Shown here: one piece after another, positions 5,693-55,647 of the stretch | Layout of the letters: the number at the start of each line of letters is the position of its first letter | Position numbering within the stretch: the stretch's first letter is position 1 | From: Deltaproteobacteria bacterium ADurb.Bin207 | Lineage (GTDB): Bacteria > Myxococcota_A > Polyangia > Polyangiales > Polyangiaceae | Direction: 5' to 3' | Assembly: GCA_002070115.1 (NCBI GenBank) | Contig: MWCO01000023.1 | Location: 1 to 64,000 of the forward strand | DNA length: 64,000 nt | The notes under the pieces: generated by a model | The model's database searches: none | Seen by the model: the letters and a program-made list of their open reading frames with translations, nothing else | Told to the model about the DNA's origin: nothing | Position numbers and translations under genes: made by a program

Positions 5693-7291
5693 TTATTCGC
5701 AGGCGACAGGATCTGTGCAATAAAATGCGGTGCCATTCCAGGCGCAGACCTGGGGCACGCATTCCGCGTCGGAAAAACAAGTCTTTGTGCCCTGGAAGAT
5801 ATCCCGACAACAATATCCCTCCCCATTCCACGAACATACCTGGCCGTTGGGACAATCATCGGCTCCAAAACAATCCTTGCGTTTGTAGACCTGGCATCGG
5901 CCATCTTTGCAACGTTCGCCCGCAGCGCATTCCCAATCGCTGTGACAGCCGGAACCCACCGTATTCGTGTTGCCGCACTCGTGAAGGAAGTCGATGCAGG
6001 GAGCACACACGCCATACTCACCAAGCACGGGCTCGCAATACATATTCAACTCGTGGGGCGCATCACCAAAGGCCATTTTGATGAGCACCTTCGCGACAAG
6101 GCTGCCCACCGGTCCAAAGGCTTGTTCAATCAACGGGTCGAATTTGATCGGTTTGCAGTCATCGTCTTTTCGACAAGGAACGCATACGCCACAAGCGTAA
6201 TCCTTTCCCATGACCGAAACGCTGGCCGCGGCACATACGTTCATCCCGTACGGCAGCACGGCGTCTTTGATCTGGTCCAATCCCGTCAAATCCCGAAGGA
6301 TCTTGCCCACGTTCAAATCGAGACTGACCCCGGAGCAATCGCCATCTTTCGAGCAGAGGTTGGTCACCTGCGACCAAGGTTCGGGCAATACGGCGAAGTT
6401 GCCCGGGATATCCGAACATCCACTGGCGGGCACGCCACAACGACCGTCACCCCCATTGATAGGTTTGTGGCAGGCGATGAGGTCGCCTTCACAACCTTTG
6501 CAATCATCATCGGATTGACAGGTTCCTTTGGGTTTGTCCAAAGCCCCGCATACTTTGATGCACATGCCCTGCGGCCCACACACGGTGCCACTTCCCGCGG
6601 GACAAGGATGGGAGGCCGAGCATTCACTGCAATGCCGCGATGTTTCATTGCAAGCATGCCCCGTGTTCACCATCGTTCCACACGATGCGCAATCCTCGTC
6701 CATCGTGCAGGGATAAGGGCATTTATCCATGCACTTGCCCTGTTTGCAGGAGGCTTGGGAATCACAGGCAAATAGGTTGGTGTCACTGCAGGCTACACAT
6801 TTCCCCGATGCCGTATCGCATACCTGATGCATCGTATCACAAGCAAAACAGTCGTTGTCCGTCGTGCATGTCACCGTGGGCTCGCCCGTCGCATCCGTGG
6901 GACAGGTCATCCCTTCCGGAATACACGTGCCGTATTGAGAACATACCTCGCCGTCATCGCACGCATCCGGCGGTTCCCCTGGCACGCACTTCACACAGCG
7001 TTTCGAAGACTCATCACAGACAACCCGGCCATTCGGGCAACCCACGCATTCATCGTCGGATTCACAATCATGCATGAAACAGATCTCGTCGAGCCAATCC
7101 TCTCCGCCACTTCCCCCTTTCGCGGAAGAACCTCCGGAACCCGATTTTCCCCCTCCGCTTCCTGATTCCCCTGTGGTGCCAGCTCCGCCGTCCGCGCGGT
7201 TGCCTCTGGCTCCCGCGTCTCCGGTAGCACATCCGGCCATACCGAATATCAACCCACCGATGATAATCAACGAGGAAAAAATAAGCTTCAT
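5693..7291 (-). CDS. Cys-rich repeat lipoprotein
   Basis: 532 aa from the ATG at 7291. Signal peptide with lipobox FGMAGC (Cys21), then a Gly/Ser-rich linker to about residue 65, then roughly 450 residues dense in cysteine. Repeats of the type C-x-x-D-x-D-C-x-x-C (CESDDECVGC, CTTDNDCFAC, CTMDEDCASC, CQSDDDCKGC, CRKDDDCK) resemble the Cys-rich repeats common in myxobacterial surface proteins, and should form disulfide-bonded modules outside the cytoplasm. No enzymatic motif is visible; a surface or scaffold role is likely. It lies upstream of, and on the same strand as, the AgmX-like gene, 139 bases away, so the two may be cotranscribed. Open frames on the opposite strand are mirror images of this region. 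Confidence 0.85.
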   Translation of the reverse strand: MKLIFSSLIIIGGLIFGMAGCATGDAGARGNRADGGAGTTGESGSGGGKSGSGGSSAKGGSGGEDWLDEICFMHDCESDDECVGCPNGRVVCDESSKRCVKCVPGEPPDACDDGEVCSQYGTCIPEGMTCPTDATGEPTVTCTTDNDCFACDTMHQVCDTASGKCVACSDTNLFACDSQASCKQGKCMDKCPYPCTMDEDCASCGTMVNTGHACNETSRHCSECSASHPCPAGSGTVCGPQGMCIKVCGALDKPKGTCQSDDDCKGCEGDLIACHKPINGGDGRCGVPASGCSDIPGNFAVLPEPWSQVTNLCSKDGDCSGVSLDLNVGKILRDLTGLDQIKDAVLPYGMNVCAAASVSVMGKDYACGVCVPCRKDDDCKPIKFDPLIEQAFGPVGSLVAKVLIKMAFGDAPHELNMYCEPVLGEYGVCAPCIDFLHECGNTNTVGSGCHSDWECAAGERCKDGRCQVYKRKDCFGADDCPNGQVCSWNGEGYCCRDIFQGTKTCFSDAECVPQVCAWNGTAFYCTDPVACE

Positions 7292-33560: not shown

Positions 33561-35153
33561 TCAAGGGTTCACTACCCTCGCTCCCAATTCGAATCCCGTC
33601 AGAGTACGGATCAGACCCGTTTCCAGATCCACGAAAGTAATCCGGCCCTCCGGATGCTTCTGGGCCACATAAGCCCGTTTGGCCTCGGCAAGGGTGCCTA
33701 CCGCAATCGGCGGACTCGCCAACTCAAATCGGTCCACCTGTTGATTGAACATCTTGATGAGATACGCCCCAAATACCTTCTTCGCATCGTCGCGCTCCGC
33801 AACGACCCCATACTCGCCAGACGGACTGATCGCTACCGCACTGGGAGGAGCCGTCATTCCCACGATTTTTGCCGGAAGCTTCGGCGAAAGATGCAATACG
33901 CTGAACGCGCTCACATACGACGATTCCAGCGAATTCGTGGGGGGGTGGAGCACGATCGAACTGATTCCCGTGGGCGCCAAAAAGGCTGCCAACACGGGAG
34001 CATGAAGTTTGATCGCGTCGGACGTCGCTGGCGAATTCTCATAATGAAGCGCCGCTATCCGATCCTGTTGACTCGCATTCGAATACAACAACGCAACCTG
34101 GGCTTCCGACGCCATCGTGGCCGACCCCACCACCATATTCGTGATCTTCACCGTTTCATAAGCCGTCGGCGCTTCGACAATCCCAGGAATCGGAAGCACC
34201 GCGACCTCGCCTTGCTCCCGTATCACCGCAATTGCCTTTTTCCCATCCGACGATAAATCAAGATCCGTTACCGTTCCAGACAGGTTTACCTCCGTTCGCA
34301 TACCGTTTTCGAGGGATACCACCACGATCCGATCGCTGTTTTCCCACCGAACCAACGCATACATACCATCCGCGGTGATCGATACGTCACGGCTTGCAGG
34401 GTCGTCGAAAGGATCGTCGGATACGGGGATCAAGCCAACGATAACCGGATTGCCCGTGGACAGGTCCATCACCGAAATGCCGTCTTGCGTCACCGCGTAA
34501 GCATGCATTTCATCAGCGGAAAACTGCAGAGCCACCGGACGATACCCCACGGAAAGCCGCGTTGCCTTCTCTGCTCCTTCGCTCAAGTCGAGCACCGCGA
34601 TGTCCTGGAAACCATGGGTTTCATTGGCTTCCGCGATCTTGCGACTGTCCGTCCACGCAATGGCCCAACGTCCTGTGGACGATATCGCCCAAGCATTGTT
34701 TTGTTGCGCAATCGGCAGCGAAATACTGTCAATTGTATCCGAAGCGGTGGCCCGAAGAACCGTGGCATCCGAAGAAACCTCATTGATGACCACCGCCACG
34801 TCTTCCGAAGGATGAGGCACGGGCGCAAGATACGATGGCCCATTACCCGCTTCCGTCGTACTTACTTCCAGCGTGACGGCATCGATGAACGCCACGCGGC
34901 CACTCAACGGATTGGCGATCCACACGAAACGTCCAGTGGCCACCGGCGATTCGTAGGCGCTTTCAACTTCTTGTTCGGGGGGAAGCTGGCCGGAGCCAGC
35001 TTGACCGCCCCCAGCCGGCCCTTCATATCCTCCCGAACCGCCCGTATCGTTCGGATAAGGAGCCGTATTTCGCAACGAATCCGTTTCGTTCGCTCCACAG
35101 GCTACCATGAACAATCCCACGCCCAGGCATCCGTACCATCGTAGCTTCGACAT
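33561..35153 (-). CDS. Beta-propeller lipoprotein (paralogue of 37657-39273)
   Basis: 530 aa, ATG at 35153 with GAGGAGG nearby. Lipobox FMVAC (Cys19), Gly/Ser linker, then from about 60 a repetitive domain with YncE/PQQ-type propeller blades: GRFVWIANPLSGRVAFIDAVTLEV, DVAVVINEVSSDATVL, HAYAVTQDGISVMDL, RDVSITADGMYALVRW, AVAISPSGEYGVVAERDDAKKVFGAYLI, ending RITFVDLETGLIRTLTGFELGARV. It is closely related over its whole length to the lipoprotein at 37657-39273, with many identical strings (LPPEQE, NPLSGRVA / NPVSGRVA, TLTGFELGARV / TLTGFELAARV), so the two arose by duplication. It probably acts as a surface scaffold; no enzymatic residues were recognised. Confidence 0.85.
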   Translation of the reverse strand: MSKLRWYGCLGVGLFMVACGANETDSLRNTAPYPNDTGGSGGYEGPAGGGQAGSGQLPPEQEVESAYESPVATGRFVWIANPLSGRVAFIDAVTLEVSTTEAGNGPSYLAPVPHPSEDVAVVINEVSSDATVLRATASDTIDSISLPIAQQNNAWAISSTGRWAIAWTDSRKIAEANETHGFQDIAVLDLSEGAEKATRLSVGYRPVALQFSADEMHAYAVTQDGISVMDLSTGNPVIVGLIPVSDDPFDDPASRDVSITADGMYALVRWENSDRIVVVSLENGMRTEVNLSGTVTDLDLSSDGKKAIAVIREQGEVAVLPIPGIVEAPTAYETVKITNMVVGSATMASEAQVALLYSNASQQDRIAALHYENSPATSDAIKLHAPVLAAFLAPTGISSIVLHPPTNSLESSYVSAFSVLHLSPKLPAKIVGMTAPPSAVAISPSGEYGVVAERDDAKKVFGAYLIKMFNQQVDRFELASPPIAVGTLAEAKRAYVAQKHPEGRITFVDLETGLIRTLTGFELGARVVNP

Positions 35154-36067: not shown

Positions 36068-37660
36068 TCAAAACCCTCCCTGAAGCAAGCCGACATGCAT
36101 TCGGGCGGAGGCTTCATCTGGCGAAAATGCATCGACCACCGTGGCACCCATGTTTCCCTGGTAGTGCAAAGCCACCATCGCGCGGCCGCCTCCCGCGCGG
36201 CCAATATCGAATACACTGGTGATTGGCTGTTCGAGCACAAGGTTTTGAGGATGCATGGTGAGCAGGTCGACCACCGCCATCTCTCGAGAATTACGCTGGA
36301 AAAACCAGGCCCGCTGCCCGTCCGCCGATACCGTCAACGAAAGCGAGGAAGCACTGGTGAGCAAGGGCGACGCCGTGCGATTGGCAAGGTTCAGCACGTA
36401 AAAACGTCGGCCACCATAACCAGCATCATTCGGTACAAGGATTTTCAGCGATTGATTGGGGGCCGGAACGCTCACCACGTTACCTACCGACGAGTCAATA
36501 TCCGGAAGCACTTCGATGCTTCGGTACGCCTGCCCCACCGACTTACCAAGCGACCAAAAGGCCACCCCTTCGTAGCCCCAAAGCATGGCCACATCACTGC
36601 CACCGGCCGGAGCATCGCTAATCTCGCGCGTGACGAGCGAGATACGCCCAAAAGACGCGGGCATATCAACTTGAGTTTCCGTCGTCGTGTCCGGATCCAC
36701 GAGCGTCGCTCGACGCATTCCCGCCTCGAGCATGGCCAGCCGTAACCCCCCGTCCGTATTGACAAAAGCGAAATCCGACGGGGTGCTCGTCAACCCAATG
36801 ATGTTCACCGTCAGCCCAAAGTCGTTTTCCGCGGAAGCATTGGCTTGTGGAACGAATGTCAGCAAAAACACGCTGTTCTCTTTGGTGGTGCGCACCGCGA
36901 GACGAGCGTCATCGTTGCGCTGTGGAACCCCGTCCGTGTAGGTCACTCCCGCGGGAACGACTTTATAATCATTACTCAACCTGACCGTGACCTCTTTGCG
37001 ATCGAGATGGTCGAGATCGAGAAGAGACAGGTCTTGGTCCGTTTCGATGATCAACAGGCGCCGCTGACCCGAGGGAAGATTCAGTGGCGACGTAAACGTT
37101 AGGCGCTGGGGTGTACCTCCGAAGGACCGGATGGTGCGAGGAAGGGGATTGGTATCACCGGGAGGCAGGCTCGTATCGATGACGAGGAGTTCATTGCGGT
37201 TGGTCACGAAAGAGCCCGAGGCTCCCGAAGAGTACAGCACGACAAAGCGGCCTTCCGGATCGACAGCGATGCTGTCGAGAGGGTTGGACAAGGTGTATTT
37301 GGAGAGCAGGTTGCCAGAACCCGAGCCGTCATAAACCCAAAGGGCGGGGCGTTCATCGCTGCTTTTTCGCCGTGGCTGCTCACCTTTGCTCAGAACGAAG
37401 AGGCGGTCCGCCTGGGGAGAGGCCATGACCGCAACCACATTTTTACCTGTATTTTTGCGTACTTGCGACAGATTCAGAGACTCGTCCACGGAAAATAGAT
37501 GCACGGAATGCATCGATTCATCGATCAGGGCGAAAGAGTTTTCGAGCCCCTTGTCGAACCGAACGACAGCGGGAGTATCCCAGGATTCAGGACGGTCCCC
37601 GCAGCCCGATAAGAGTGTTATGCTCGCGATTCCCACAAAGATGGCATGAGAGTATTTCAT
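36068..37660 (-). CDS. Divergent beta-propeller lipoprotein
   Basis: 530 aa, ATG at 37660 in an ATGA overlap with the preceding gene's stop. Lipobox ITLLSGC (Cys20). The body shows repeated blades: NSFALIDESMHSVHLFSVDESL, KNVVAVMASPQADRLFVLSKGE, LDSIAVDPEGRFVVLYSSG, QDLSLLDLDHLDRKEVTVRL, SLSLTVSADGQRAWFFQRN, EMAVVDLLTMHPQNLVLEQP. It is similar in architecture to its two neighbours but clearly more distant in sequence. Function unknown; position and coupling imply it works in the same complex as the barrel-like protein encoded next. Confidence 0.82.
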   Translation of the reverse strand: MKYSHAIFVGIASITLLSGCGDRPESWDTPAVVRFDKGLENSFALIDESMHSVHLFSVDESLNLSQVRKNTGKNVVAVMASPQADRLFVLSKGEQPRRKSSDERPALWVYDGSGSGNLLSKYTLSNPLDSIAVDPEGRFVVLYSSGASGSFVTNRNELLVIDTSLPPGDTNPLPRTIRSFGGTPQRLTFTSPLNLPSGQRRLLIIETDQDLSLLDLDHLDRKEVTVRLSNDYKVVPAGVTYTDGVPQRNDDARLAVRTTKENSVFLLTFVPQANASAENDFGLTVNIIGLTSTPSDFAFVNTDGGLRLAMLEAGMRRATLVDPDTTTETQVDMPASFGRISLVTREISDAPAGGSDVAMLWGYEGVAFWSLGKSVGQAYRSIEVLPDIDSSVGNVVSVPAPNQSLKILVPNDAGYGGRRFYVLNLANRTASPLLTSASSLSLTVSADGQRAWFFQRNSREMAVVDLLTMHPQNLVLEQPITSVFDIGRAGGGRAMVALHYQGNMGATVVDAFSPDEASARMHVGLLQGGF

Positions 37661-39273
37661 GGTTGGCTCCCGTCGATCACACGCGCGGCAAGTTCGAATC
37701 CCGTCAGGGTTCGAGACAATCCCGTGTCCAGATCGATGAATGTCAAGCGGCCTTCTGGGTGTTGTTGCGCAACGAACGCGCGTTTTGCACCAAGGACGGT
37801 GCCTACGGCGATAGGGGGGCTGAATAAGGGATAACGGTCTATCTGCAGGTTGTCGCGTCGAACCAGATACGCGCCGAATATTTTCGAGGCATCATTGCGT
37901 TCGGCCACGACGGCTCGGTCTCCGGATGGGGTGAGCGATACGCCGAACACCTCGGCTTGGGTAGCCACGATTTTGGCAGGCAGTTCCGGGTCGAGGGTCA
38001 ATGCGCTGAACGCTCTCGCATGGCTGTTTTTGTCTTTGTGGACGACGATGGCACTGGATGCGTTTTCAGCAAGAAAAACAGCGAGTACGGGGGAGTGTAA
38101 GGCCATGGTTTGCACACGTATGGGGGTGACATCCCATCGAATTTTGGCCATCCGCTGTTCCACCGCCGCGTTCGAAAACCCAAAAGCAACTGGAGCACCA
38201 GCCGCGATCACCACGGAACCGACCGTCACGTTCGGAATGGACACCACCTCAAAATCCTCCGGCGCTGTGGCGATCTGCGGCACGGGAAGAATTGCGATTT
38301 CGTGTTGGTCGCGGATGGCGGCTATCGCGCGAGTCCCATCCGCGCTCAAGTCCAGGTCCGTGCATTCTCCAGAAAGTTGAACACGTATTCGATGACCGTC
38401 CGTGAGGGAAACGACCGTGACATCCTGGGAACCGTTTTGGCGAACGAAGGCCAGGGAACCATCGGGCGTAATAGAAACGTCGCGTGTGTCACTCGTTTCG
38501 AAGTCATCGTCCGAGGTAGGGATGAGTTTGGAAACGGAAGGCCCTTGGGGAAGCAGAAGATCAATGACGGAAATACCGTCTTGCGTTACCGCATGAGCAC
38601 GTTCTTCCCCCTTCGAAAACGAGAAGGCGATGGGCCGATAACCGATGGATAATCTTGAAACTTTTTCGGTTTGGACGTCTATGACAGAGATGTCTTGGAA
38701 GCCTTGGACAGGGTTTGGATTTGGGTACAAGTCTGCGTTGGCCCAGGCGATAGCCCAGCGGCCAGACGGGGAAATGGCCCAGGAATTGGCTTCGTTGGCG
38801 ATGCCGAAGGTGGTTGTGGACACGTTGCCGGCGTCATCGGCTTGCAGCAAGGTGGCATCACCGGATAATTCGTTGATGACGATCGCGGTGTCGCGGTCCG
38901 GATTGGGAACGGGGGCAATGGCTTTTGGGCTATTTCCGGCGGGGACGGTGCGGACTTCGAGGGTGGTGGCGTCGACGTAGGCGACCCGGCCGCTGACCGG
39001 GTTGGCGACCCATACGTACCGTTCTGTAGCAACGGGAGAGCCGTATTCGCTTTCCAATTCTTGTTCTGGGGGAAGGGCAGCGTCCGCCATGGCGCCTCCT
39101 CCGGAGCCCCCCCCGTCAAGAGATGGGTATTCATTTCCGGGGTAGCTGGGTGGCATTTGGCTTCCTTCCTCATCCATGGCGTCGGATGCCTGGCATGCGA
39201 CCAAGACGCCGACGAAGCCGGCGATTCCTATCATGGAGCTGAATAGGAGCAGCCATCGTGGTTGTGTCATCAT
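37657..39273 (-). CDS. Beta-propeller lipoprotein (first gene of the operon)
   Basis: 538 aa from the ATG at 39273 (GGAGG 6 bases upstream; a second ATG follows at 39270). Lipobox GVLVAC, Gly-rich linker with LPPEQELESEYGSPVAT, then a propeller of about seven blades in the same order as the paralogue at 33561-35153 (YVWVANPVSGRVAYVDA, DRDTAIVINELSGDATLL, HAVTQDGISVIDL, RDVSITPDGSLAFVRQ, GVSLTPSGDRAVVAERNDASKIFGAYLV, RLTFIDLDTGLSRTLTGFEL). It heads the set 39273 to 33064: propeller, divergent propeller, barrel, propeller, PilZ. The repeated propeller gene suggests copies specialised for different partners. Confidence 0.85.
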   Translation of the reverse strand: MMTQPRWLLLFSSMIGIAGFVGVLVACQASDAMDEEGSQMPPSYPGNEYPSLDGGGSGGGAMADAALPPEQELESEYGSPVATERYVWVANPVSGRVAYVDATTLEVRTVPAGNSPKAIAPVPNPDRDTAIVINELSGDATLLQADDAGNVSTTTFGIANEANSWAISPSGRWAIAWANADLYPNPNPVQGFQDISVIDVQTEKVSRLSIGYRPIAFSFSKGEERAHAVTQDGISVIDLLLPQGPSVSKLIPTSDDDFETSDTRDVSITPDGSLAFVRQNGSQDVTVVSLTDGHRIRVQLSGECTDLDLSADGTRAIAAIRDQHEIAILPVPQIATAPEDFEVVSIPNVTVGSVVIAAGAPVAFGFSNAAVEQRMAKIRWDVTPIRVQTMALHSPVLAVFLAENASSAIVVHKDKNSHARAFSALTLDPELPAKIVATQAEVFGVSLTPSGDRAVVAERNDASKIFGAYLVRRDNLQIDRYPLFSPPIAVGTVLGAKRAFVAQQHPEGRLTFIDLDTGLSRTLTGFELAARVIDGSQP

Positions 39274-43188: not shown

Positions 43189-44877
43189 GTGTCCTTTCGC
43201 CGTCGAAACCTTACCCTGGTGGGAACCGGGCTTACACTACCCCACGTGGATGGTGAGGCGCAGCGTTACAACTTGGCTACTGCTCACCTGCATGCGGCAG
43301 TACATGCCGACCCTGCCTTGGGCGGCGTCGAAGTGCGACGGCTCGATTTGCCGTTTTCCTTGAATGCCCCTTGTTTCGACCAGGCGGTGGTCGATGAGGT
43401 GCTGTCGACGGAACCGGATTGGCTAGGTTTGTCTTGTTATTGCTGGGATTTGGCGCCGCTTCTCGCGCTTGCCGCACGCGTCAAAGCGTTGCATCCGCCA
43501 ATTCGTATCGTAGCTGGGGGTCCTTCGGCTACGTTTGAGGCTTCTTCGTTGCTGGTCAACCATGCGTGTCTTGACGCGGTCGTGCGGGGGGAAGGGGAAC
43601 TGACTCTTCGCCAGATGTTGCTGCGGGATGATTATCGCGGTGTTGCTGGAGTGACATGGCGGGACGAGCAAGGGCGGGTGGTCGAGGAATTGGATCGCGC
43701 TGCCGCGGATTTATCCGACTTGCCTTCCCCGCTCCTCGAGGGTGTGTTGACCCCACCGCGTCAGAACCTGATGTTCGAGTTTTCCCGAGGGTGCATATAT
43801 CGATGTACTTATTGTGCTTGGAAGGGGCAGGGGCCCGGGATGCGCTTCGTTTCCGACGAACGCGTAGGTCATGAGGTGGGCTGGGCGGTGGAGCATGATT
43901 ATGAGCATGCCTTCATCATCGATAGCGCCATCAATCATGACGACTCCCGGCTGGAAAGATTTTCCGCGCAGATCGCCCGTGCCGATCCTACGCGACATCT
44001 GGCGTTTTCGTATTTCGTGAACCATTCGCTGCTCTCGAAAGACCAAGCACGCGCCTTGGCACGTCTTCGACCCCATGAGATCACGGTGGGGCTCGAAACC
44101 GTCAACGTGCGAGCTGCCCGAGCGGCAGGCCGCAGGCCGGTGGACCGCGATGAATTCATTCGCGCGATGGATTTGCTGTCGGAGGTAGCGCCCGCGACCC
44201 TGTCGATCATGCTTGGCATGCCGGGCGACGATCTCGAGGGTTTTCGCAGTACGTTGGATTTCGTGGCGGAGGTGGCGGAGCGAAAAGGAAAACCAAGGGT
44301 TCGAATGGCGAGGGTGCATTGGATGCTCATTGCTCCAGGCTCGAAGATGTGGTCGTTGGCCGACCGCCACGGGCTTGTGATTGCGCAACCGGGTGTCCCC
44401 TATGTGCTTGGATCTTCGACGTTTTCTCGGGATCAGCTCATCGCCGCCTTGCATGCGATGCGTGAGCATCCGCGTTCGGATTTGTTCGTATGGGAAGATG
44501 CGGAACCTCTTGGCATGCTCGATCCTGCCTTGCCTTCCATGTTCGTGGCCGGTGGCGACCATATTGGCGGAAGAGTCGCCAGACAAATTTCACAGACCGA
44601 AGTCCTTCAGGCCATTCGTCCCCTCGAGCCGGGCCGATGGCTTCGTCATGAATGGAGGGTTGGCGCCTTCGAGCATCGGCACGGTTGGCCGGTCGTGGTG
44701 TTGGAAGGCCCTGGGAACAAACGTGTTATGCTGCAAATTCGGCCCAGAGATGCGGAGCCTCGTCCTTTGGCGAGAACACGGCGTTTCGACCTCGTCTGGT
44801 TGCCATCCGGTGGCGAGGGACCAGAGCAGCATCGATTGGTGAAAGCGCTGGTGGAGTTGATTCGCAGCAACGAATAG
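43189..44877 (+). CDS. B12-binding-type radical SAM protein
   Basis: 562 aa, GTG start at 43189. The N-terminal about 150 residues have the cobalamin-binding Rossmann pattern (ALGGVEVRRLDLP, EPDWLGLSCYCWDL, IVAGGPSATFEA, DAVVRGEGELTL), although the classical D-x-H-x-x-G histidine is absent. The radical SAM domain follows: SRGCIYRCTYCAWKG with the [4Fe-4S] ligands Cys202, Cys206 and Cys209, then GLETVNVRAARAAGR and MLGMPGDD. A C-terminal tail (about 480-562) reappears in the neighbouring gene. The family includes methyltransferases and other C-C-bond-forming enzymes acting on peptides or small molecules; the substrate here is unknown. It converges on 44891-47485 with 13 bases between the stops. 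Confidence 0.88.
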   Translation: MSFRRRNLTLVGTGLTLPHVDGEAQRYNLATAHLHAAVHADPALGGVEVRRLDLPFSLNAPCFDQAVVDEVLSTEPDWLGLSCYCWDLAPLLALAARVKALHPPIRIVAGGPSATFEASSLLVNHACLDAVVRGEGELTLRQMLLRDDYRGVAGVTWRDEQGRVVEELDRAAADLSDLPSPLLEGVLTPPRQNLMFEFSRGCIYRCTYCAWKGQGPGMRFVSDERVGHEVGWAVEHDYEHAFIIDSAINHDDSRLERFSAQIARADPTRHLAFSYFVNHSLLSKDQARALARLRPHEITVGLETVNVRAARAAGRRPVDRDEFIRAMDLLSEVAPATLSIMLGMPGDDLEGFRSTLDFVAEVAERKGKPRVRMARVHWMLIAPGSKMWSLADRHGLVIAQPGVPYVLGSSTFSRDQLIAALHAMREHPRSDLFVWEDAEPLGMLDPALPSMFVAGGDHIGGRVARQISQTEVLQAIRPLEPGRWLRHEWRVGAFEHRHGWPVVVLEGPGNKRVMLQIRPRDAEPRPLARTRRFDLVWLPSGGEGPEQHRLVKALVELIRSNE

Positions 44878-44890
44878 CCACGACGATCGT

Positions 44891-47485
44891 TCAGGCGATT
44901 TGCTTTCCGGACAAAAGACGCGTGATGACCCGGCGCAATCGATCGAGTTGTTCTTCGGGGGGTCGTTCGCCGCGCACTTCGAACGAGGCTTCGATCCGAT
45001 TGTCTTGGGTGGAAAGACGGATGTGGACGAGGGTATCGCGTTTCCAAAAAAACTCTAATCGCGCGTTCTGATCTTGGGTGTGCCATGGTCCCGGGGACCA
45101 TCCGGCAAGGGCATCGGAACGGCGCAAAGGAGCCAGTTTTCGCATGAGTTGATCTATGGATAACAGGTGTGATTTCGATAGGTTACGAATTTTTTGTCCC
45201 CATGCATGCGCGATACCTTCCGCTTCTGAGAGCCAGAGGGGGTCCACGGTAGCCGTCACGGTCAAGGTATGGGTGGGTAAGGCTCGAAGGGCTTTCAAAC
45301 AGGCGATGGATTGTGTGCCATCCAACCGATAGGAGTGTCGGATGCTTCCTTGCGGATCGGCTCGTCGAAGCGTATCGATCCACGTGCCAAGGCGGGAAGG
45401 ATCGGAGGGGAGGCTGTCATCGAGCCAGACGACGTGGGTGTGACGCTGTTCCAGGGCCCATCTCATATCGCGAAAAATCCGCTCGTCGCTCCAGGTTCGA
45501 GGGGGTGAAGGGCGACCGAGTTGCATGGCGATGGTGGAGCCGGGGCGCCGGATGAATCCCCATTGAAAGGGGGAAGGAATGTCGTCGAGGTCGGCTAGTG
45601 TTTGTGGTGAATCGCTTCTTACGAGGCCATGGGGCTGTCGCGTGACGAGGCCGGGAGCCGGTTGTCCACGAAGAAGAGCGCGCAATGCGATTTCGCTTTC
45701 ACCGAAGGTGGCCGCGTATGCGCTGGGGATGGCAGTCATCCAGGCTTCGGCCTGGGCAAGCGATGAGGCGCCTTCGAGAAGCAAGCGGGGTATCTTTTGC
45801 TGGGTCAGCAACGACTCCAACCACGGGGAGGGGGGGAGTCGGAGGCAGGAGGCAATGAGCCATTGGGGGTGGAGATTGTCGAATCGTTCGACGATATTTT
45901 CGGATTCGAGGGCTGTTTCGAATCGGTAGGCCTGGCGAATATCGTTGTGTTTTTCAAGAAAAGCGCGGAGTTGGGCACCTCGAAGATGGTAGGGGGTCAC
46001 ACCGAAGTCGCGGAAGGATTCATCCAATTCACCGACGAAAAGGACGGTGGGACGAGTATCGTGTTCGACCCGGAGGATGGGGATGGTGCGGTCTGGGGCA
46101 GGGGCATCTTGGGCGAGGTATTCTTTGTGGAAGTGTTCGACGCGGAGTTTGGGGTGTGCGAAGTGTCGTTCGATGGCCTGTCGTGCCATGGTGAGGAGCG
46201 CGTCGGGGCTGTGTTCGTGGCTTTGGAGCAGGTAGGGGGTTCCGCGGGGGGAGCATCGCAGGCCAAGTTCGTTGTGTCGCGCATGGAGTCCGGAACCGGG
46301 AAGTACCGCGAGCCAGAAAAGGCAAATCACATGGAGATAGCCTGGATGGTTGTCGTCGAATTCGCAAATCCACGACAGGGTTTGCTCGAGTCCTTCGGGC
46401 GAATCGCCTGGCAGTCCGAGGATGAACGAACAGGTGACGGGGCCGACTCGTTGGAGCCACGAGAGCTGTTCGGTGAACGTTTCGGGGGAAAACGGGGGTT
46501 TTCCCGCGAGCGCTCGGGCGGCGGGGGTCAGGCTTTCCGTGCCGATGATGACCTCGTCGGAAGGGATTTGGGCCAGCAGGTCGATCTGCTCCAAGGTGAG
46601 CCGTTCGGGTTTTAGAAAATAGGTAAACCGCAAGGTTTGGTGAGGGTCCGCCCGGTGGATGGCCCGGGTGAGTTCGCGCAATCGGCTGGTCTGGAAATTG
46701 ATGGCGGTGTCGGCGAACTTGATGCCGCGAATACCATGTTCCACGGCCCAGCGGAGTTGCTCTTCCACACGGTGGGCGGGCACGTAGCGCAACCGCCGGT
46801 TTGCCCCCATGCAAGAGCAGAAACGGCATTGAAACGGGCATCCCCGGCTGGTTTCCAGCAGCATCGACGTGGAAGGCGGGCGCAGGATTCCGAGTTGATA
46901 CGCCGAGGGCAAGGTGGACAAATCCACCGGTTCCCCATCGGGGTTTTCGTGCAATACGCCGTCAGAGGCTCGCCAGGTCAGACCTTGTACGGTGTGAAGG
47001 GATTGGTGGTTTCGTCGTGCTCGCAACAAGGCAATGAGCGTGTTTTCCCCTTCGCCTCGCGCCACGGCGGAAATGAATGGACGTTCTAGGAGCAGTTTTT
47101 TTGCGACAGGGCCCGCGGAAGGGCCCCCGGCAAACAGAAAAACGTCGTTTGCGCGTTGGTGAATCTCTTCGGCCACATCGACAAGAGCGTCGATGCTCCA
47201 ACAATAACAAGACAGACCCACGAGGTCCGGCTCGAGAGCGACGATGTGGTGAACGACATCCATGCCCAGCGTTTGCGTGCCCTGGGAGATGTCGAGATCG
47301 ATGCGATGAACGTCGAAATGATTTGTGAGATCGCTGGTGTTTCGAACGCTGGCTTCGAGAGAAGCGAGCGCGAGGTTGTAATTCTCGGAAGCGAAGTCCG
47401 AGAGCGATTCATAACCCGGCAGTTCGGTTTCCCGTTGAATGGAGGCTCCCAGGAGCACAAGGGTGAGTTTGGTGGGGGGGCTCAT
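44891..47485 (-). CDS. Tandem B12-radical SAM protein: intact N-terminal copy, degenerate C-terminal copy
   Basis: 864 aa. Residues 1-470 form a complete B12-binding radical SAM protein (EPDLVGLSCYCWSID; GGPSAGPVAKK; SRGCPFQCRFCSC with Cys216, Cys220 and Cys223; GTESLTPAARALAG; LGLPGDSPEG). Residues about 478-760 repeat the plan: a Rossmann half (TVLFVGELDESF ... LHPQWLIASC), FGESEIALRALLRG, DLDDIPSPFQWGFIRRPGSTIAMQLG, then RWALEQRHTHVVWLDDS ... TLRRADPQGSIRHSYRL, which parallels RWAVEHGIRGIKFADTA ... AIHRADPHQTLRFTYFL of the first half. No cluster cysteines remain in the second copy. The last 80 residues resemble the tail of the gene at 43189. The degenerate half may bind substrate or partner. 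Divergent from the repeat lipoprotein at 47716. Confidence 0.87.
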   Translation of the reverse strand: MSPPTKLTLVLLGASIQRETELPGYESLSDFASENYNLALASLEASVRNTSDLTNHFDVHRIDLDISQGTQTLGMDVVHHIVALEPDLVGLSCYCWSIDALVDVAEEIHQRANDVFLFAGGPSAGPVAKKLLLERPFISAVARGEGENTLIALLRARRNHQSLHTVQGLTWRASDGVLHENPDGEPVDLSTLPSAYQLGILRPPSTSMLLETSRGCPFQCRFCSCMGANRRLRYVPAHRVEEQLRWAVEHGIRGIKFADTAINFQTSRLRELTRAIHRADPHQTLRFTYFLKPERLTLEQIDLLAQIPSDEVIIGTESLTPAARALAGKPPFSPETFTEQLSWLQRVGPVTCSFILGLPGDSPEGLEQTLSWICEFDDNHPGYLHVICLFWLAVLPGSGLHARHNELGLRCSPRGTPYLLQSHEHSPDALLTMARQAIERHFAHPKLRVEHFHKEYLAQDAPAPDRTIPILRVEHDTRPTVLFVGELDESFRDFGVTPYHLRGAQLRAFLEKHNDIRQAYRFETALESENIVERFDNLHPQWLIASCLRLPPSPWLESLLTQQKIPRLLLEGASSLAQAEAWMTAIPSAYAATFGESEIALRALLRGQPAPGLVTRQPHGLVRSDSPQTLADLDDIPSPFQWGFIRRPGSTIAMQLGRPSPPRTWSDERIFRDMRWALEQRHTHVVWLDDSLPSDPSRLGTWIDTLRRADPQGSIRHSYRLDGTQSIACLKALRALPTHTLTVTATVDPLWLSEAEGIAHAWGQKIRNLSKSHLLSIDQLMRKLAPLRRSDALAGWSPGPWHTQDQNARLEFFWKRDTLVHIRLSTQDNRIEASFEVRGERPPEEQLDRLRRVITRLLSGKQIA

Positions 47486-47567
47486 CGGTGGCGGTTTGCG
47501 CGGGCGGCGGCTTCGGTATACAGGAGCATGGTTTTTTCGATGCTACCATGGTGGAGGGCAGAGGGAA

Positions 47568-47588
47568 TTGGCTCGGGGTTCGAGCCAA
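47568..47588. promoter_or_regulatory. 8-bp perfect inverted repeat in the divergent promoter region
   Basis: TTGGCTCG 47568-47575 and CGAGCCAA 47581-47588 flank a 5-nt loop, between the divergent radical SAM (start 47485) and repeat lipoprotein (start 47716) genes. No T-run follows, so an operator controlling both genes is as likely as an RNA hairpin. Confidence 0.4.
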
Positions 47589-47715
47589 CTTGTGTCAATG
47601 CTGCGCCATGACCATCCAAACCAATCGAAAGATTATCAAAAAGATATGTTAATACATGTAGTTAAAAATGGAACGGGGTTTGCAGTTCTCTCTATTGTGC
47701 CAATGGAGGAGTGTG

Positions 47716-48330
47716 ATGTCGAACGATAACCATCCGAACCTCGCGAAAGCCTATTTGGAGGAACTCTGTCAGCGTCTCGACCGCAAGGAAAAGCTGGTTC
47801 GACGTCGTGAATGGTGGAAGATGCCCTGGATCGCGTCCGCTGCGGTAGGGTTGGCCTTATCAGGCTGCGGGGGCACCGTGGAAGCGGAAGATTGTGGCCC
47901 CAATGGCGATGCCTGTGGAACTGAAAACGTCGACAAGGGCGACAAGGGTAAGGATACGGATGCGGCGCCTCCTGTGAAAGAAGTATGTGACAATCGGGTG
48001 GACGATGATGGGGATGGGGCGGTGGATTGTGATGATGATGATTGTCTCAAAGATCCGAGTTGTATGATTTCGGCGGAGTACGCGGCGCCTTTTGAGGTCG
48101 AGGTCTGTGACAATCAGGTGGATGATGATGGGGATGGGGCGGTGGATTGTGATGATGATGATTGCCTCACGGAGCCGATGTGTATGAATTCAGCGGAGTA
48201 TGCGGCGCCATTTGAAGTCGAGGTCTGTGACAATCAGGTGGATGATGATGGGGATGGGGCGGTGGATTGTGATGACGACGATTGTCTAGGTTCGCCTACC
48301 TGTGGTGCCGGGATGTATGCTGCCCCTTGA
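47716..48330 (+). CDS. Repeat lipoprotein with DxDxDG acidic loops and YAAP motifs
   Basis: 204 aa from the ATG at 47716, preceded by GGAGGA. An unusual 36-residue N-terminal extension (SNDNHPNLAKAYLEELCQRL, then KLVRRREWWK) precedes the hydrophobic segment and lipobox LALSGC. After a Gly/Asp/Lys linker come three near-identical 40-residue units: V-C-D-N-x-V-D-D-D-G-D-G-A-V-D-C-D-D-D-D-C-L plus, in the first two, xSAEYAAPFEVE; the protein ends in GMYAAP. The acidic loops look calcium-binding and the Cys pairs probably bridge. The long N-region could be a leader for modification or a signal-peptide extension. It is divergently arranged with the tandem radical SAM gene, which may act on it (inference). 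Confidence 0.8.
   Translation: MSNDNHPNLAKAYLEELCQRLDRKEKLVRRREWWKMPWIASAAVGLALSGCGGTVEAEDCGPNGDACGTENVDKGDKGKDTDAAPPVKEVCDNRVDDDGDGAVDCDDDDCLKDPSCMISAEYAAPFEVEVCDNQVDDDGDGAVDCDDDDCLTEPMCMNSAEYAAPFEVEVCDNQVDDDGDGAVDCDDDDCLGSPTCGAGMYAAP
47983..48293. repeat. Three tandem 120-bp repeats
   Basis: The block around TGTGACAATC starts at 47986, 48106 and 48226, exactly 120 bases apart, and units two and three are almost identical. Recent duplication inside the lipoprotein gene. Confidence 0.9.
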
Positions 48331-52415: not shown

Positions 52416-54290
52416 ATGGATCCGATGTCCATTCCACCTCTTCCCAACACGAAAACGCACGTCCTTGGAGGAAAAGTCGTTGCGGCGGGCGGGCAAGCAC
52501 GACAAGCCATCGCCGCGCTATTTGGATTCGATCCGAGCGAAGCGACAGCGGTTGCGTGGGTCGATCACGCTGTCGAGATTGCCATCGATGCGAACGGCAA
52601 CGTGCAGGTATTGCGTGTCGAACGTCGGGAATCTGGGTCTCGAGGGCTCGTTCGCACGGCGCATCTCAACATTTATGCGCGAGGCAAAGACCTACCTCAA
52701 TCGTTCGCTGAACGCGTTCGGCGAGCGGCGGAACGGCTTTCGGGTTGGACCGTCGATCATCTGGCTGTCCTAGTAGCGTCCGATCCGGAATCGGGCTCGC
52801 CGGGGCTTGCCATGCCTCCCGCTCGAGACGAGGCGAAACGTCCTCGATCGTTGTTGGATACGTGGGGAGCAGCGGACAGTTTCGCGGACTTTTTTGCGGG
52901 CGGGGAGATCGCGCGAAGCCAACTCGATTCCATTGATCCGTCCAAGCTATTTCACTTCGTACAGCATTGTGATGCGGAGTGTTTGTTCGTGAATCCTCAC
53001 TCGGTGGGGTTCATTGTGACGCTGGTCAATTTCCCATGGGATGATCGAGTACGGGAACCGGGACATCCGGGGGGACAAAACCTAGCGAACATCACGGACA
53101 GGGATTTCGTGGAGGAAGGGATGGTGACGACCGATCTGACGGAGGACGACGTCATCATGGGCAATCCGGGCAAGCTGACTTCATTGATCGAGTACGCGGT
53201 GTCTCGTCCTTCCTCGGGGGACAAGTTGCTCTTCGTGAGCAATACCTGCGTGCCGACGGTGATTGGGGAAGATGTGGAATCGGTCGTCAAACGGGTTCGG
53301 AATCGAACGGGCAAAGAGATCCTGTACTTGACGGTGACGCCTCGTTCGATGACGAATGTATTTCAAAGCCTTTTGGTGGATCGTCGATTGGAAGCGGAAG
53401 CGAAAGCGGTTGAAGCCGATGAACGCTCGGTGAATCTCATTGGTTTTGCGGGGGCCAAGGCGGTCGAGGAGTTGCGGGAGGCGTTGCGAGAGTTTGGTGT
53501 TGGGGTGAACGTGGTTCTGCTTCCGGACTTGAATGTCGATCGGGTGGATGCGCTGCCGCGCGCGCGGACGAATGTTTTTTATCCGAATCAACTTTGGCGG
53601 CACATGTACGATCAGGTATTGGATCGCAGTTCGCTCAAGGCTGTGGAAGTGCCGGGTCCTTTTGGATTCGAAGCTTCCCGCGCGTGGTTTCGACAAGTGG
53701 CGCAAGCCGTGGGTGAATCGGATGAGGCAAAGCAAGAGCGTGCCTGGGAAAAAGTCGTGGCGCCGTGGCAATCGCGTTGGGAAAACTTATGTGCTCAAGC
53801 TAGATCGTATCGTCTTGGTTTTGTGGTGCGAGACGAAGAAGCCTATTATCTCACCAATCCTGGAGCGTCGTGGGGGGTGCCTTTGCTCGAATTGGTGGAA
53901 GAGATGGGGTTTGGGATCGATGTGTTGGTGGGGGTAAGTGATGCGAAAATCGCTAAAAATGCAGCGTTAGCGATTCGTCGTCGGTTCCGAAAACCCGACC
54001 GGCATTCGGTGCGTGCTTTCGATAGTTTTTCGTTTTTGCGAAAAAGACTGCGGGATTGCCCAGCGAACGCATTTCTTTCCTATCACTTTTATGATTGGCG
54101 CTTGACCGAAGCGGGTAAGGCGAGTTTTTCGATTCAGCACTTCGAGATGGGGGTTGCGGGCGCGGTACGCACGATCGAGCGATTGCTTCGCGTGTGTCAA
54201 ACGACATTTTTCTCGCGCTATGGGCGTTATCTTGGTCGCGAGGAAAGCGGGTTGCGAACGGTGGGGCAAAAGGAAAAGTTGGATGGTTGA
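52416..54290 (+). CDS. Nitrogenase component-1-like protein (large subunit type)
   Basis: 624 aa. A unique N-terminal domain of about 130 residues (NifX-like spacing; LFGFDPSEATAVAWVDHAVEIAIDANGNVQVLRVERR), then a nitrogenase/protochlorophyllide-reductase-type oxidoreductase fold. Cys185 and Cys189 (QHCDAECLF) and Cys278 in SNTCVPTVIGEDVESVV, the counterpart of the conserved Cys of NifD/BchN before IGDD, could bind an Fe-S cluster. NifD's cofactor ligand motifs are not evident. NVVLLPDLNVD and the C-terminal FGIDVLVGVSDAKIAKNAAL with FLSYHFYD complete the fold. Overlaps the second subunit gene by 8 bases. It would need a NifH/BchL-like ATPase that is not in the window. Substrate unknown; similar to uncharacterised myxobacterial homologues. 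Confidence 0.75.
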   Translation: MDPMSIPPLPNTKTHVLGGKVVAAGGQARQAIAALFGFDPSEATAVAWVDHAVEIAIDANGNVQVLRVERRESGSRGLVRTAHLNIYARGKDLPQSFAERVRRAAERLSGWTVDHLAVLVASDPESGSPGLAMPPARDEAKRPRSLLDTWGAADSFADFFAGGEIARSQLDSIDPSKLFHFVQHCDAECLFVNPHSVGFIVTLVNFPWDDRVREPGHPGGQNLANITDRDFVEEGMVTTDLTEDDVIMGNPGKLTSLIEYAVSRPSSGDKLLFVSNTCVPTVIGEDVESVVKRVRNRTGKEILYLTVTPRSMTNVFQSLLVDRRLEAEAKAVEADERSVNLIGFAGAKAVEELREALREFGVGVNVVLLPDLNVDRVDALPRARTNVFYPNQLWRHMYDQVLDRSSLKAVEVPGPFGFEASRAWFRQVAQAVGESDEAKQERAWEKVVAPWQSRWENLCAQARSYRLGFVVRDEEAYYLTNPGASWGVPLLELVEEMGFGIDVLVGVSDAKIAKNAALAIRRRFRKPDRHSVRAFDSFSFLRKRLRDCPANAFLSYHFYDWRLTEAGKASFSIQHFEMGVAGAVRTIERLLRVCQTTFFSRYGRYLGREESGLRTVGQKEKLDG

Positions 54291-55647
54291 TCCAAAGGAG
54301 AGATGGGAGCGATCCGAGGGGCGCGAAGGCGATTTCAGCCAACGGGTGACGTTCACGTACATGATTGGCGTTTACCTTGCGGTCAATGCGATTTCGGATT
54401 TGTATCTTTTGGTCGAGGGGCCGGATTGCAGCTATATGAAGACGCAATACGTGCAGGGCAATCACGATTGGATGTCCACGTTGACGAGTGTGTCGGGCTT
54501 TCACCGAGTGGCTAACACGGCGCTGCACCCTTCCCAGATGGGCAGTTCCCGTGAAGAAGGCATTCGCGAGGTGCTGCTTCGAATGGCGGGTGACGCCTCC
54601 GTACCCGCGATAGCGCTGACATCGATGCCCATGGCGTTCATCACGGGCGCGGATTACGAGCGTCTTACGCGTTTGGTCCACAAGCAAACGGGCAAGTCGG
54701 CGGTTCACATACCGGGCAAGTCGCTGTCTGGGGATTGGCTGGATGGTTATGCGGAGACTCTGCTTGCGCTAGCCTCGCAAGTAGAGTTGCAGCTCGAGGG
54801 GCAACAAGACCATCGCGTGGCGATCGTGGGGTATTTATGGGATCGCAACGAAGGGGATCATGAGGGAAATCTGCGTGAACTAAGGCGGATATTCGACGCG
54901 CTTGGGTTGGAACTCGTATCGGTTTGGCTCGATGGTTCCCGGTTTGAAGACCTTGCGCGTGTTGCGCAAGCGAAAACGATCTTGTCGTTTCCCTATGGAC
55001 GAAAGGCTGCAAAGAAGCTTGCACGAAGAACGAACGCACGTTTGATCGAGATGCCGTTACCCTTTGGATTCGAGGACTCGGAACGATTCGTTCGACGGTT
55101 GGGAGAAGCATTTGCATGTGAGACTCAGGCGGAAGCGTTCATCGATCGGCAGTTGTCGACAATCATTCCAAAACTCGAATGGGTCGTTCCCTTTTTGTTT
55201 CAGAATCGTCGGTTTGCCTTTGTGGGGGAGCCGCACATCTTGCCTGGTTTCGAGGGGTTGGTATCGATGCTAGGAGGCGAATTGGCCTACGCGGTGATCA
55301 CGAATCATCCGCACCATGCGTCGACGTTGCGGGTGGGGCTCGAGGCTTCTTGCGTGCTTGTCTATCCAAAAATGAAAGAGATGGTGCGTTTCTTATTCGG
55401 AAAAGCGCGCGAGACGGACATTCATTTGGTGGTGACCAACAACGTGGGCATCATGGGTGCGGAAGGTGCCATCTTCGAGTTTGGGTTTCCCTCTTCGTTC
55501 CGGCACGCTTTGTATGACAGACCATTTTTGAGCTTCGCGGGAGCGCTGGCTTTCGTCGACTCGATGGCGAACACGATGCGAATGCACGAGGTTGAGCTAG
55601 CGCGAAGAACGATGTCGATGGGTTTGGGCAAGCTATTGGGCCATTGA
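54283..55647 (+). CDS. Nitrogenase component-1-like protein (second subunit)
   Basis: 454 aa from the ATG at 54283, inside the end of the previous gene. Nitrogenase-component-1-type fold: LYLLVEGPDCSYMKTQYVQGNHDW with Cys49 in the G-P-x-C position (equivalent of a P-cluster or BchB ligand), LTSMPMAFITGADYERL where other subunits have a Cys but here none, IPGKSLSGDWLDGYAETLLAL, RVAIVGYLWDRNEGDHEGNLREL, RFAFVGEPHILPGF ... ITNHPHHAST, and VTNNVGIMGAEGA. Two predicted ligands from the partner plus one here could complete a [4Fe-4S] cluster. It is shorter than its partner and lacks the extra N-terminal domain. Probably forms a heteromeric reductase of unknown substrate. Confidence 0.75.
   Translation: MVDPKERWERSEGREGDFSQRVTFTYMIGVYLAVNAISDLYLLVEGPDCSYMKTQYVQGNHDWMSTLTSVSGFHRVANTALHPSQMGSSREEGIREVLLRMAGDASVPAIALTSMPMAFITGADYERLTRLVHKQTGKSAVHIPGKSLSGDWLDGYAETLLALASQVELQLEGQQDHRVAIVGYLWDRNEGDHEGNLRELRRIFDALGLELVSVWLDGSRFEDLARVAQAKTILSFPYGRKAAKKLARRTNARLIEMPLPFGFEDSERFVRRLGEAFACETQAEAFIDRQLSTIIPKLEWVVPFLFQNRRFAFVGEPHILPGFEGLVSMLGGELAYAVITNHPHHASTLRVGLEASCVLVYPKMKEMVRFLFGKARETDIHLVVTNNVGIMGAEGAIFEFGFPSSFRHALYDRPFLSFAGALAFVDSMANTMRMHEVELARRTMSMGLGKLLGH

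Follow-up and report, generated by a model that had tools for sequence, protein, structure and literature searches.

A leader-bearing lipoprotein of a Polyangiaceae genome as the probable substrate of a radical SAM/SPASM enzyme encoded at a distance

The lipoprotein gene and its relatives

The subject of this study is a small lipoprotein gene of Deltaproteobacteria bacterium ADurb.Bin207 (Polyangiaceae) and the enzyme that may modify its product. The window, meaning the whole stretch of DNA that was analysed, comprises 64,000 nucleotides (positions 1 to 64,000 of contig MWCO01000023.1). The arrangement and coordinates described in the initial annotation were confirmed: two genes for B12-binding radical S-adenosylmethionine (SAM) proteins, of 562 and 864 residues, are convergent, and the lipoprotein gene, which is divergent from the gene of the 864-residue protein, encodes an N-terminal extension, three repeats and three YAAP motifs. 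The open reading frame of the lipoprotein as listed has 220 residues from 47668; this reading was replaced by the one from the ATG at 47716, which gives 204 residues. The latter is the likely start, since a GGAGG lies six bases upstream (47705-47709) and the conservation among relatives begins there. The features of the gene are as follows.

47716-48330, + strand: leader-bearing lipoprotein of 204 residues, the proposed radical SAM substrate (ATG start preceded by GGAGG; NF033662 above cut-off; leader hidden Markov model match at 47716-47874)
47716-47823, + strand: N-terminal leader, residues 1-36, MSNDNHPNLAKAYLEELCQRLDRKEKLVRRREWWKM, with one predicted helix at residues 6-33 (conservation; AlphaFold helix H6-33)
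47824-47868, + strand: hydrophobic segment and lipobox LSGC with the presumed lipidated Cys51, codon 47866-47868 (sequence; aligned Cys invariant)
47974-48063, + strand: acidic double-disulfide repeat 1 (NF033662 match)
48100-48183, + strand: acidic double-disulfide repeat 2 (NF033662 match)
48220-48303, + strand: acidic double-disulfide repeat 3 (NF033662 match)
48079-48090, + strand: YAAP site 1, Tyr122 (Tyr and Pro invariant in eight aligned lipoproteins)
48199-48210, + strand: YAAP site 2, Tyr162 (Tyr and Pro invariant in eight aligned lipoproteins)
48316-48327, + strand: YAAP site 3, Tyr201, C-terminal (Tyr invariant; C-termini of the two paralogs likewise YAAP or YAAPFSP)

The hydrophobic segment is followed by the lipobox, WIASAAVGLALSGC, and Cys51 aligns with the lipobox cysteine of the relatives. 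NF033662 (acid_disulf_rpt) matched the protein in three stretches with 65.6 bits against a cut-off of 41. Each of the three units, at most 40 residues long (period 120 bp or 40 residues), consists of an acidic double-disulfide repeat followed by YAAP, and all three sites are of the XYA form. The AlphaFold model of the lipoprotein had a mean predicted local distance difference test score (pLDDT) of 61, with low confidence everywhere except in the leader helix and in some stretches of the repeats. Another lipoprotein of the same genome, on contig C31 (L071/L054, G000:C31 51235-51777), has five acidic disulfide repeats with linkers such as VAPPPFE and GVPYPYE and is without the leader. The window also encodes two similar beta-propeller-like lipoproteins (33561-35153 and 37657-39273), which contain ESAYESPVATGRFVW and ESEYGSPVATERYVW; the second carries a single EYGSP motif.

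The comparison covered 184 genomes of the order of the host, with G-numbers for genomes (G000 being that of the window), C-numbers for contigs and L-numbers for loci. The source genome encodes two paralogs at unlinked positions (contigs C37 and C92) that carry the same leader and likewise have YAAP sites, and this recurrence of extension and YAAP places the pattern far above chance. Matches to the leader profile were obtained in 7 of the 184 genomes, which belong to one family and six genera, and comprised 16 lipoproteins, three from the source genome and 13 from the six others. The architecture is constant, with leader, lipobox and repeats in this order. The sites are YAAP (also YMAP and YSAP) in some of the lipoproteins, YGIP in others and both in some, so that YA and YG alternate inside single proteins; the sister lipoproteins with XYGIP sites have LYGIP and KYGIP. 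In G121, which has two such lipoproteins, the sites of one are mostly degenerate.

A radical SAM/SPASM enzyme paired with the lipoproteins

Outside the source genome most of the leader lipoprotein genes adjoin, usually divergently, a gene for a radical SAM/SPASM protein of about 375 residues. Such pairs occur in G022 (C58, C27), G113 (C468, C49), G029, G116, G133 and G121, where the lipoprotein of the pair on C115 was not listed by the leader profile; the lipoproteins on C13, C64 and C71 of G022 and on C80 of G113 have no such neighbor. In the source genome, the enzyme gene lies on contig C111 (locus L175, 5984-7159, minus strand), where the enzyme search gave a 62% identical match at 6071-7159 of the minus strand; no lipoprotein gene adjoins it there. 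Copies of at least 60% identity are present in exactly the same seven genomes as the leader and in none of the other 177, the next best match being 48%. The initial annotation had taken the N-terminal extension for a recognition leader, and its co-occurrence with the enzyme in 7 of 7 genomes, with mostly adjacent genes outside the source genome, makes this role probable.

These counts take genomes as units although they are related by ancestry. Contrasts within genera speak against common descent as the sole explanation: in genus g14, G116 has both leader and enzyme and G117 and G013 have neither, and in genus g66, G133 has both while G132 has enzyme matches only near 41% and is absent from the leader list. 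Several of the genomes are incomplete and absences from them are uncertain, above all for G015 (91% complete). In a tree of the enzymes, the partners of YGIP lipoproteins group in a single clade (support 91/99) and the C111 enzyme stands outside it with the YAAP-paired enzymes, as one would predict for an enzyme serving the three YAAP lipoproteins of the source genome; several other forks of the tree are weak. The C111 enzyme has the radical SAM motif CxxxCxxC as C23xxxC27xxC30 and the seven cysteines of a SPASM domain (C257, C271, C319xxC322x5C328x3C332 and C349, all invariant), and PF13186 matched this domain with 24.5 bits against a cut-off of 21.5. The predicted fold resembles SkfB, BlsE, PqqE and SuiB, and these model matches fit a SPASM maturase without revealing which reaction it performs.

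Many genomes of the order also encode more distant enzymes (about 40-48% identity, E <= 1e-80). At 39 of 60 such loci, a gene encoding a lipobox and XY[AG]xP lies within 1.5 kb or the enzyme has a fused tail with the motif, versus 1 of 76 control genes with a neighbor of this kind (Fisher 1.4e-17). Altered motifs, with the final Pro kept or with the motif reversed, were found at 2 to 13 of the 60 loci. Chance occurrence of XY[AG]xP near the enzyme was rejected on the basis of these controls. A looser motif with Ala or Gly replacing the final Pro was found at 30 of the 60 loci, and proline is therefore not the sole context. The lipoproteins of this wider family have other leaders, one of a zinc-ribbon type (IPCPxCxRHVRxxExxCPFC) and one of an IRxxIDxVCADLD type. 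The enzyme of locus L209, a relative of the zinc-ribbon type, scored 480 bits against TIGR04103 (cut-off 725). Small lipoproteins with zinc-ribbon leaders and XYGxP sites also stand in tandem, up to five in a row, beside a radical SAM/SPASM gene in many genomes of the order (L209, L216, L229, L236 and L239). In Myxococcales UBA1238, a small lipoprotein near a 57% identical enzyme (L250, 2865-3188) has YAAP directly after the lipobox Cys (TACYAAPPAEEDCYDG).

At more than a dozen loci, the SPASM domain, a hydrophobic segment, the lipobox Cys and XYG repeats are fused in a single chain (L180 7060-8493, on G000:C68; L184-L188, L190, L194, L197, L206, L208, L255, L256, L259 and L264). Cleavage at the lipobox would split such a fusion into enzyme and product. 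The fusion contig of the source assembly, C68, may be foreign or a contaminant, because its G+C content of 62.3% differs from the 57% of the window.

Alternatively, the lipoprotein could be an unmodified structural protein in which YAAP forms plain linkers between the acidic repeats, the association with the enzyme being coincidental. The acidic repeat alone is common, with 39 NF033662 matches in the source genome, and the C31 lipoprotein combines repeats with other linkers and has no such leader. However, the perfect co-occurrence with the enzyme, the adjacency of the genes, the natural fusions and the tracking of enzyme clade by motif type all argue against this explanation, and we consider it improbable. 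From the comparison of sequences, the window lipoprotein is probably the leader-core precursor of the C111 enzyme acting in trans, and not of the adjacent B12-binding radical SAM proteins. Thus the proposal of the initial annotation that a radical SAM enzyme modifies the lipoprotein probably holds, given the co-occurrence (7 of 7 against 0 of 177 genomes), the adjacency and the fusions, while its assignment of this role to the two neighboring enzymes was not supported.

The neighboring B12-binding radical SAM genes

The two genes next to the lipoprotein, and a pair of nitrogenase-like genes further downstream, are listed below.

43189-44877, + strand: B12-binding radical SAM protein of 562 residues, GTG start (PF02310, E 6e-13; PF04055, E 3e-16; intact CxxxCxxC)
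44891-47485, - strand: tandem B12-binding radical SAM protein of 864 residues, with an intact N-terminal and a degenerate C-terminal half (Pfam; comparison of halves)
52416-54290, + strand: nitrogenase component 1-like protein, NifD/NifE-like (PF00148; in a set of 59 relatives, close orthologs confined to the clusters of G015 and G022)
54283-55647, + strand: nitrogenase component 1-like protein, NifK-like (PF00148; shares a contig with the B12-binding radical SAM genes in 5 of 5 genomes)

The N-terminal half of the 864-residue protein is 35% identical to the 562-residue protein, and its C-terminal half is 23% identical to the N-terminal half (E 5e-13). The gene is thus a tandem one, as the initial annotation had it, with CxxxCxxC intact only in the N-terminal half. 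Since the C-terminal half has only two cysteines and no CxxxCxxC, radical SAM activity is possible for just one of the halves, and a reading of the protein as two working enzymes was rejected.

In the initial annotation, these two enzymes were proposed to modify the lipoprotein, for instance by C-methylation. The adjacency and the divergence of the 864-residue gene from the lipoprotein gene speak for this, as do the closest solved structures, TokK (a methyltransferase, 7kdx, for the 562-residue protein) and CysS, and the best NCBIfam matches, which are C-methyltransferase families including maturases of ribosomally synthesized and post-translationally modified peptides (RiPPs). All these matches are below cut-off; TIGR03975, for example, gave 69.5 and 65.3 bits with a cut-off of 281.85. 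The distribution of the genes points elsewhere. Relatives of the 562-residue protein (E <= 1e-50) were found in 5 of the 184 genomes (G000, G015, G022, G113 and G101), and a NifK-like relative of 54283-55647 lies on the same contig in all five, about 1 to 12 kb from the B12-binding radical SAM gene, versus adjacency of the leader lipoprotein in one of the five, that of the window. Regular occurrence of such genes with no lipoprotein nearby had been named beforehand as the finding that would count against the proposal, and this was observed in four of the five genomes, always near a NifDK-like pair. In G015, the orthologs of both genes are likewise convergent and another radical SAM gene takes the place of the lipoprotein; the leader lipoprotein was not found in this 91% complete genome. 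Conversely, G029, G116, G121 and G133 have the leader lipoprotein without the cluster, and the two paralogous lipoproteins of the source genome have no adjacent B12-binding radical SAM gene. By genome, the leader lipoprotein is also present in three of the five (G000, G022 and G113), two of them from one genus, and the association at this level is weak. The two B12-binding enzymes were rejected as maturases of the lipoprotein on linkage and distribution, and we regard this role as very improbable for them. By its gene neighborhood, the 562-residue protein is part of a NifDK-linked radical SAM set and probably not the enzyme of the lipoprotein. In this case adjacency alone misleads, since the neighboring gene probably does not encode the right enzyme.

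The clusters have further radical SAM proteins in common, and three of them also a radical SAM-methyltransferase fusion and a beta-propeller protein. The NifDK-like pair, many radical SAM proteins (several of them B12-binding), the radical SAM-methyltransferase and the beta-propeller protein form a set conserved in the five genomes (window 52416-55647; L038/L033, L034/L035, L301 and L302), the copy in the source genome being split over C23 and C25. No known pathway was recognised for this gene set. Additional nitrogenase-like NifD/K pairs, each next to a gene for a NifH-like ATPase, were noted, two in the source genome and one in G022 (L120 7583-12758, L121 6622-10723 and L119 6779-10965).

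Proposed modification and comparison with known systems

We infer the binding of the leader, the modification of tyrosine and its chemistry, the order of events and the function at the cell surface as follows. The helical leader before the lipobox, AYLEELCQRLDR...WW, would recruit the enzyme in the cytoplasm, as its co-occurrence with the enzyme suggests, and the enzyme would then act on Tyr in every X-Tyr-(Ala/Gly)-x-Pro motif lying between acidic repeats. The reaction would most likely be a tyramine excision of the PlpX type leaving an alpha-keto-beta-amino acid, for which the case is clearest with the XYG relatives and less certain with the XYA sites of the window. Export, lipidation of Cys51 and cleavage by signal peptidase II, as expected from lipobox biology, would remove the leader and leave the modified protein, with its disulfide bonds, attached to the envelope.

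Several points weigh against this scheme. The C111 gene adjoins none of the three lipoprotein genes of the source genome. The best family of the enzyme, TIGR04103 (nif11-class maturase 3), which we take to be the same family as IPR026482, was matched with 310 bits and thus below its cut-off of 725; the GDL maturases (TIGR03913) came second with 262 bits (cut-off 592) and TIGR04133, 'rSAM_w_lipo', third with 171 bits (cut-off 425). No called gene next to the C111 enzyme or next to its orthologs was recognized as a PlpY-like partner (a small recognition protein with a truncated RRE); such a partner may be encoded by a very small gene or elsewhere in the genome. Finally, the sites in the window are YAAP and not the established XYG, so that the chemistry may differ from that of PlpX.

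PlpX, a member of IPR026482 (PMC11002830), excises tyramine (C8H9NO, 135.0757 Da) at XYG, naturally MYG and LYG, and its splice tags contain LYGLPI or GYGLPI, although not every tested tag position was modified (PMC10533398). The LYGIP and KYGIP sites of the sister lipoproteins appear to fit this site rule closely. A Nostoc protein, C057, annotated as nif11-class maturase 3, adjoins a precursor ending in GGRGSIALYGLPPELF with an LYGLP core and is 50.5% identical to one of the zinc-ribbon-type enzymes found here and 38% to the C111 enzyme. At YAAP itself, splicing by analogy with PlpX is a tentative assignment. The C111 enzyme could instead modify the YAAP tyrosine by cross-linking, epimerisation or oxidation, in keeping with sites that lack the Gly of XYG, with the score below the TIGR04103 cut-off and the similarity to the GDL family, and with a predicted fold resembling SkfB, PqqE and SuiB, which carry out other reactions. 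We know of no established chemistry for the GDL family. On the other hand, XYA and XYG alternate in single lipoproteins and among DUF1843 peptides beside an Aureibacter relative, which argues for one chemistry at both, and such a different reaction is in our view possible rather than probable.

The DUF1843 peptides encoded beside GDL-type maturases or their relatives (L298 3159-3872 and L297 3034-3734) have N-terminal LYAAG, MYAAS and PYGAG in Aureibacter and LYGGA, PYGVA and MYMAT in Azospirillum. These sequences suggest that an XY[GA] site occurs in the GDL family as well.

Taken broadly, envelope lipoproteins of Polyangia-like myxobacteria may be a widespread class whose XY(G/A)xP sites are rewritten by radical SAM/SPASM enzymes. 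Several of these enzymes are fused to the substrate, and signal peptidase II would both cut off the leader (or the enzyme as a whole) and anchor the product; YAAP in the window would extend the reaction to XYA. We put this forward with somewhat less than even confidence. If it is true, cells with the YAAP subtype would display arrays of alpha-keto-beta-amino acids at the surface, or else a tyrosine modification of a new kind. Radical SAM maturases have mostly been studied on small secreted peptides, while the likely substrates here are multi-site envelope lipoproteins with at least three leader styles across the myxobacterial order, and the natural fusions make the pairing hard to doubt. Confirmation of the modification would show that ribosomal backbone or tyrosine editing is routine at a bacterial cell surface, and the enzyme could then be studied with single-gene test objects. 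It would also raise the question of which role reactive ketoamides or modified tyrosines have there.

Neither the class of enzyme nor the logic of the XYG site is new. The novelty that the initial annotation saw in a lipoprotein substrate is doubtful, because a radical SAM/lipoprotein family, TIGR04133, has already been named in NCBIfam. Beyond the acidic repeat and the general radical SAM models, no curated NCBIfam or Pfam model matched the YAAP subtype, the types of leader, the lipoprotein families or the single-chain fusions of enzyme, lipobox and substrate. A text search of the literature for TIGR04133 and TIGR04134, of limited coverage, returned nothing, and an earlier description of the lipoproteins is possible.

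Among the known systems, the B12-dependent C-methyltransferases (KedN5, TokK, CysS, TIGR03975) share the domain make-up of the two radical SAM proteins in the window, which are however far under all family cut-offs and have a NifDK-like pair, not a peptide precursor, as conserved partner. TIGR04133 is by name a radical SAM family associated with a lipoprotein, but the C111 enzyme is far under its cut-off, and family and lipoprotein partner presumably come from Bacteroidetes. The GDL maturases are alike in that DUF1843 peptides beside them or their relatives (Azospirillum, Aureibacter) carry LYGG, PYGV, LYAA and MYAA; unlike here, these substrates are peptides of about 60 residues without a signal sequence and with the motif at the N-terminus. 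From the PlpX/PlpY spliceotides the present system differs in a secreted lipoprotein substrate whose lipobox follows the leader, in a leader unrelated to Nif11 or NHLP, in the XYA sites of the window, in the absence of a visible PlpY beside the enzyme, in an enzyme under the family cut-off and in relatives that have enzyme and substrate in one chain. Yet both systems combine a radical SAM/SPASM enzyme with a leader-bearing substrate that repeats a short Tyr motif, the nearest NCBIfam model of the C111 enzyme is nif11-class maturase 3, and LYGIP and KYGIP of the sister lipoproteins are close to the LYGLP of the splice tags and of the Nostoc precursor.

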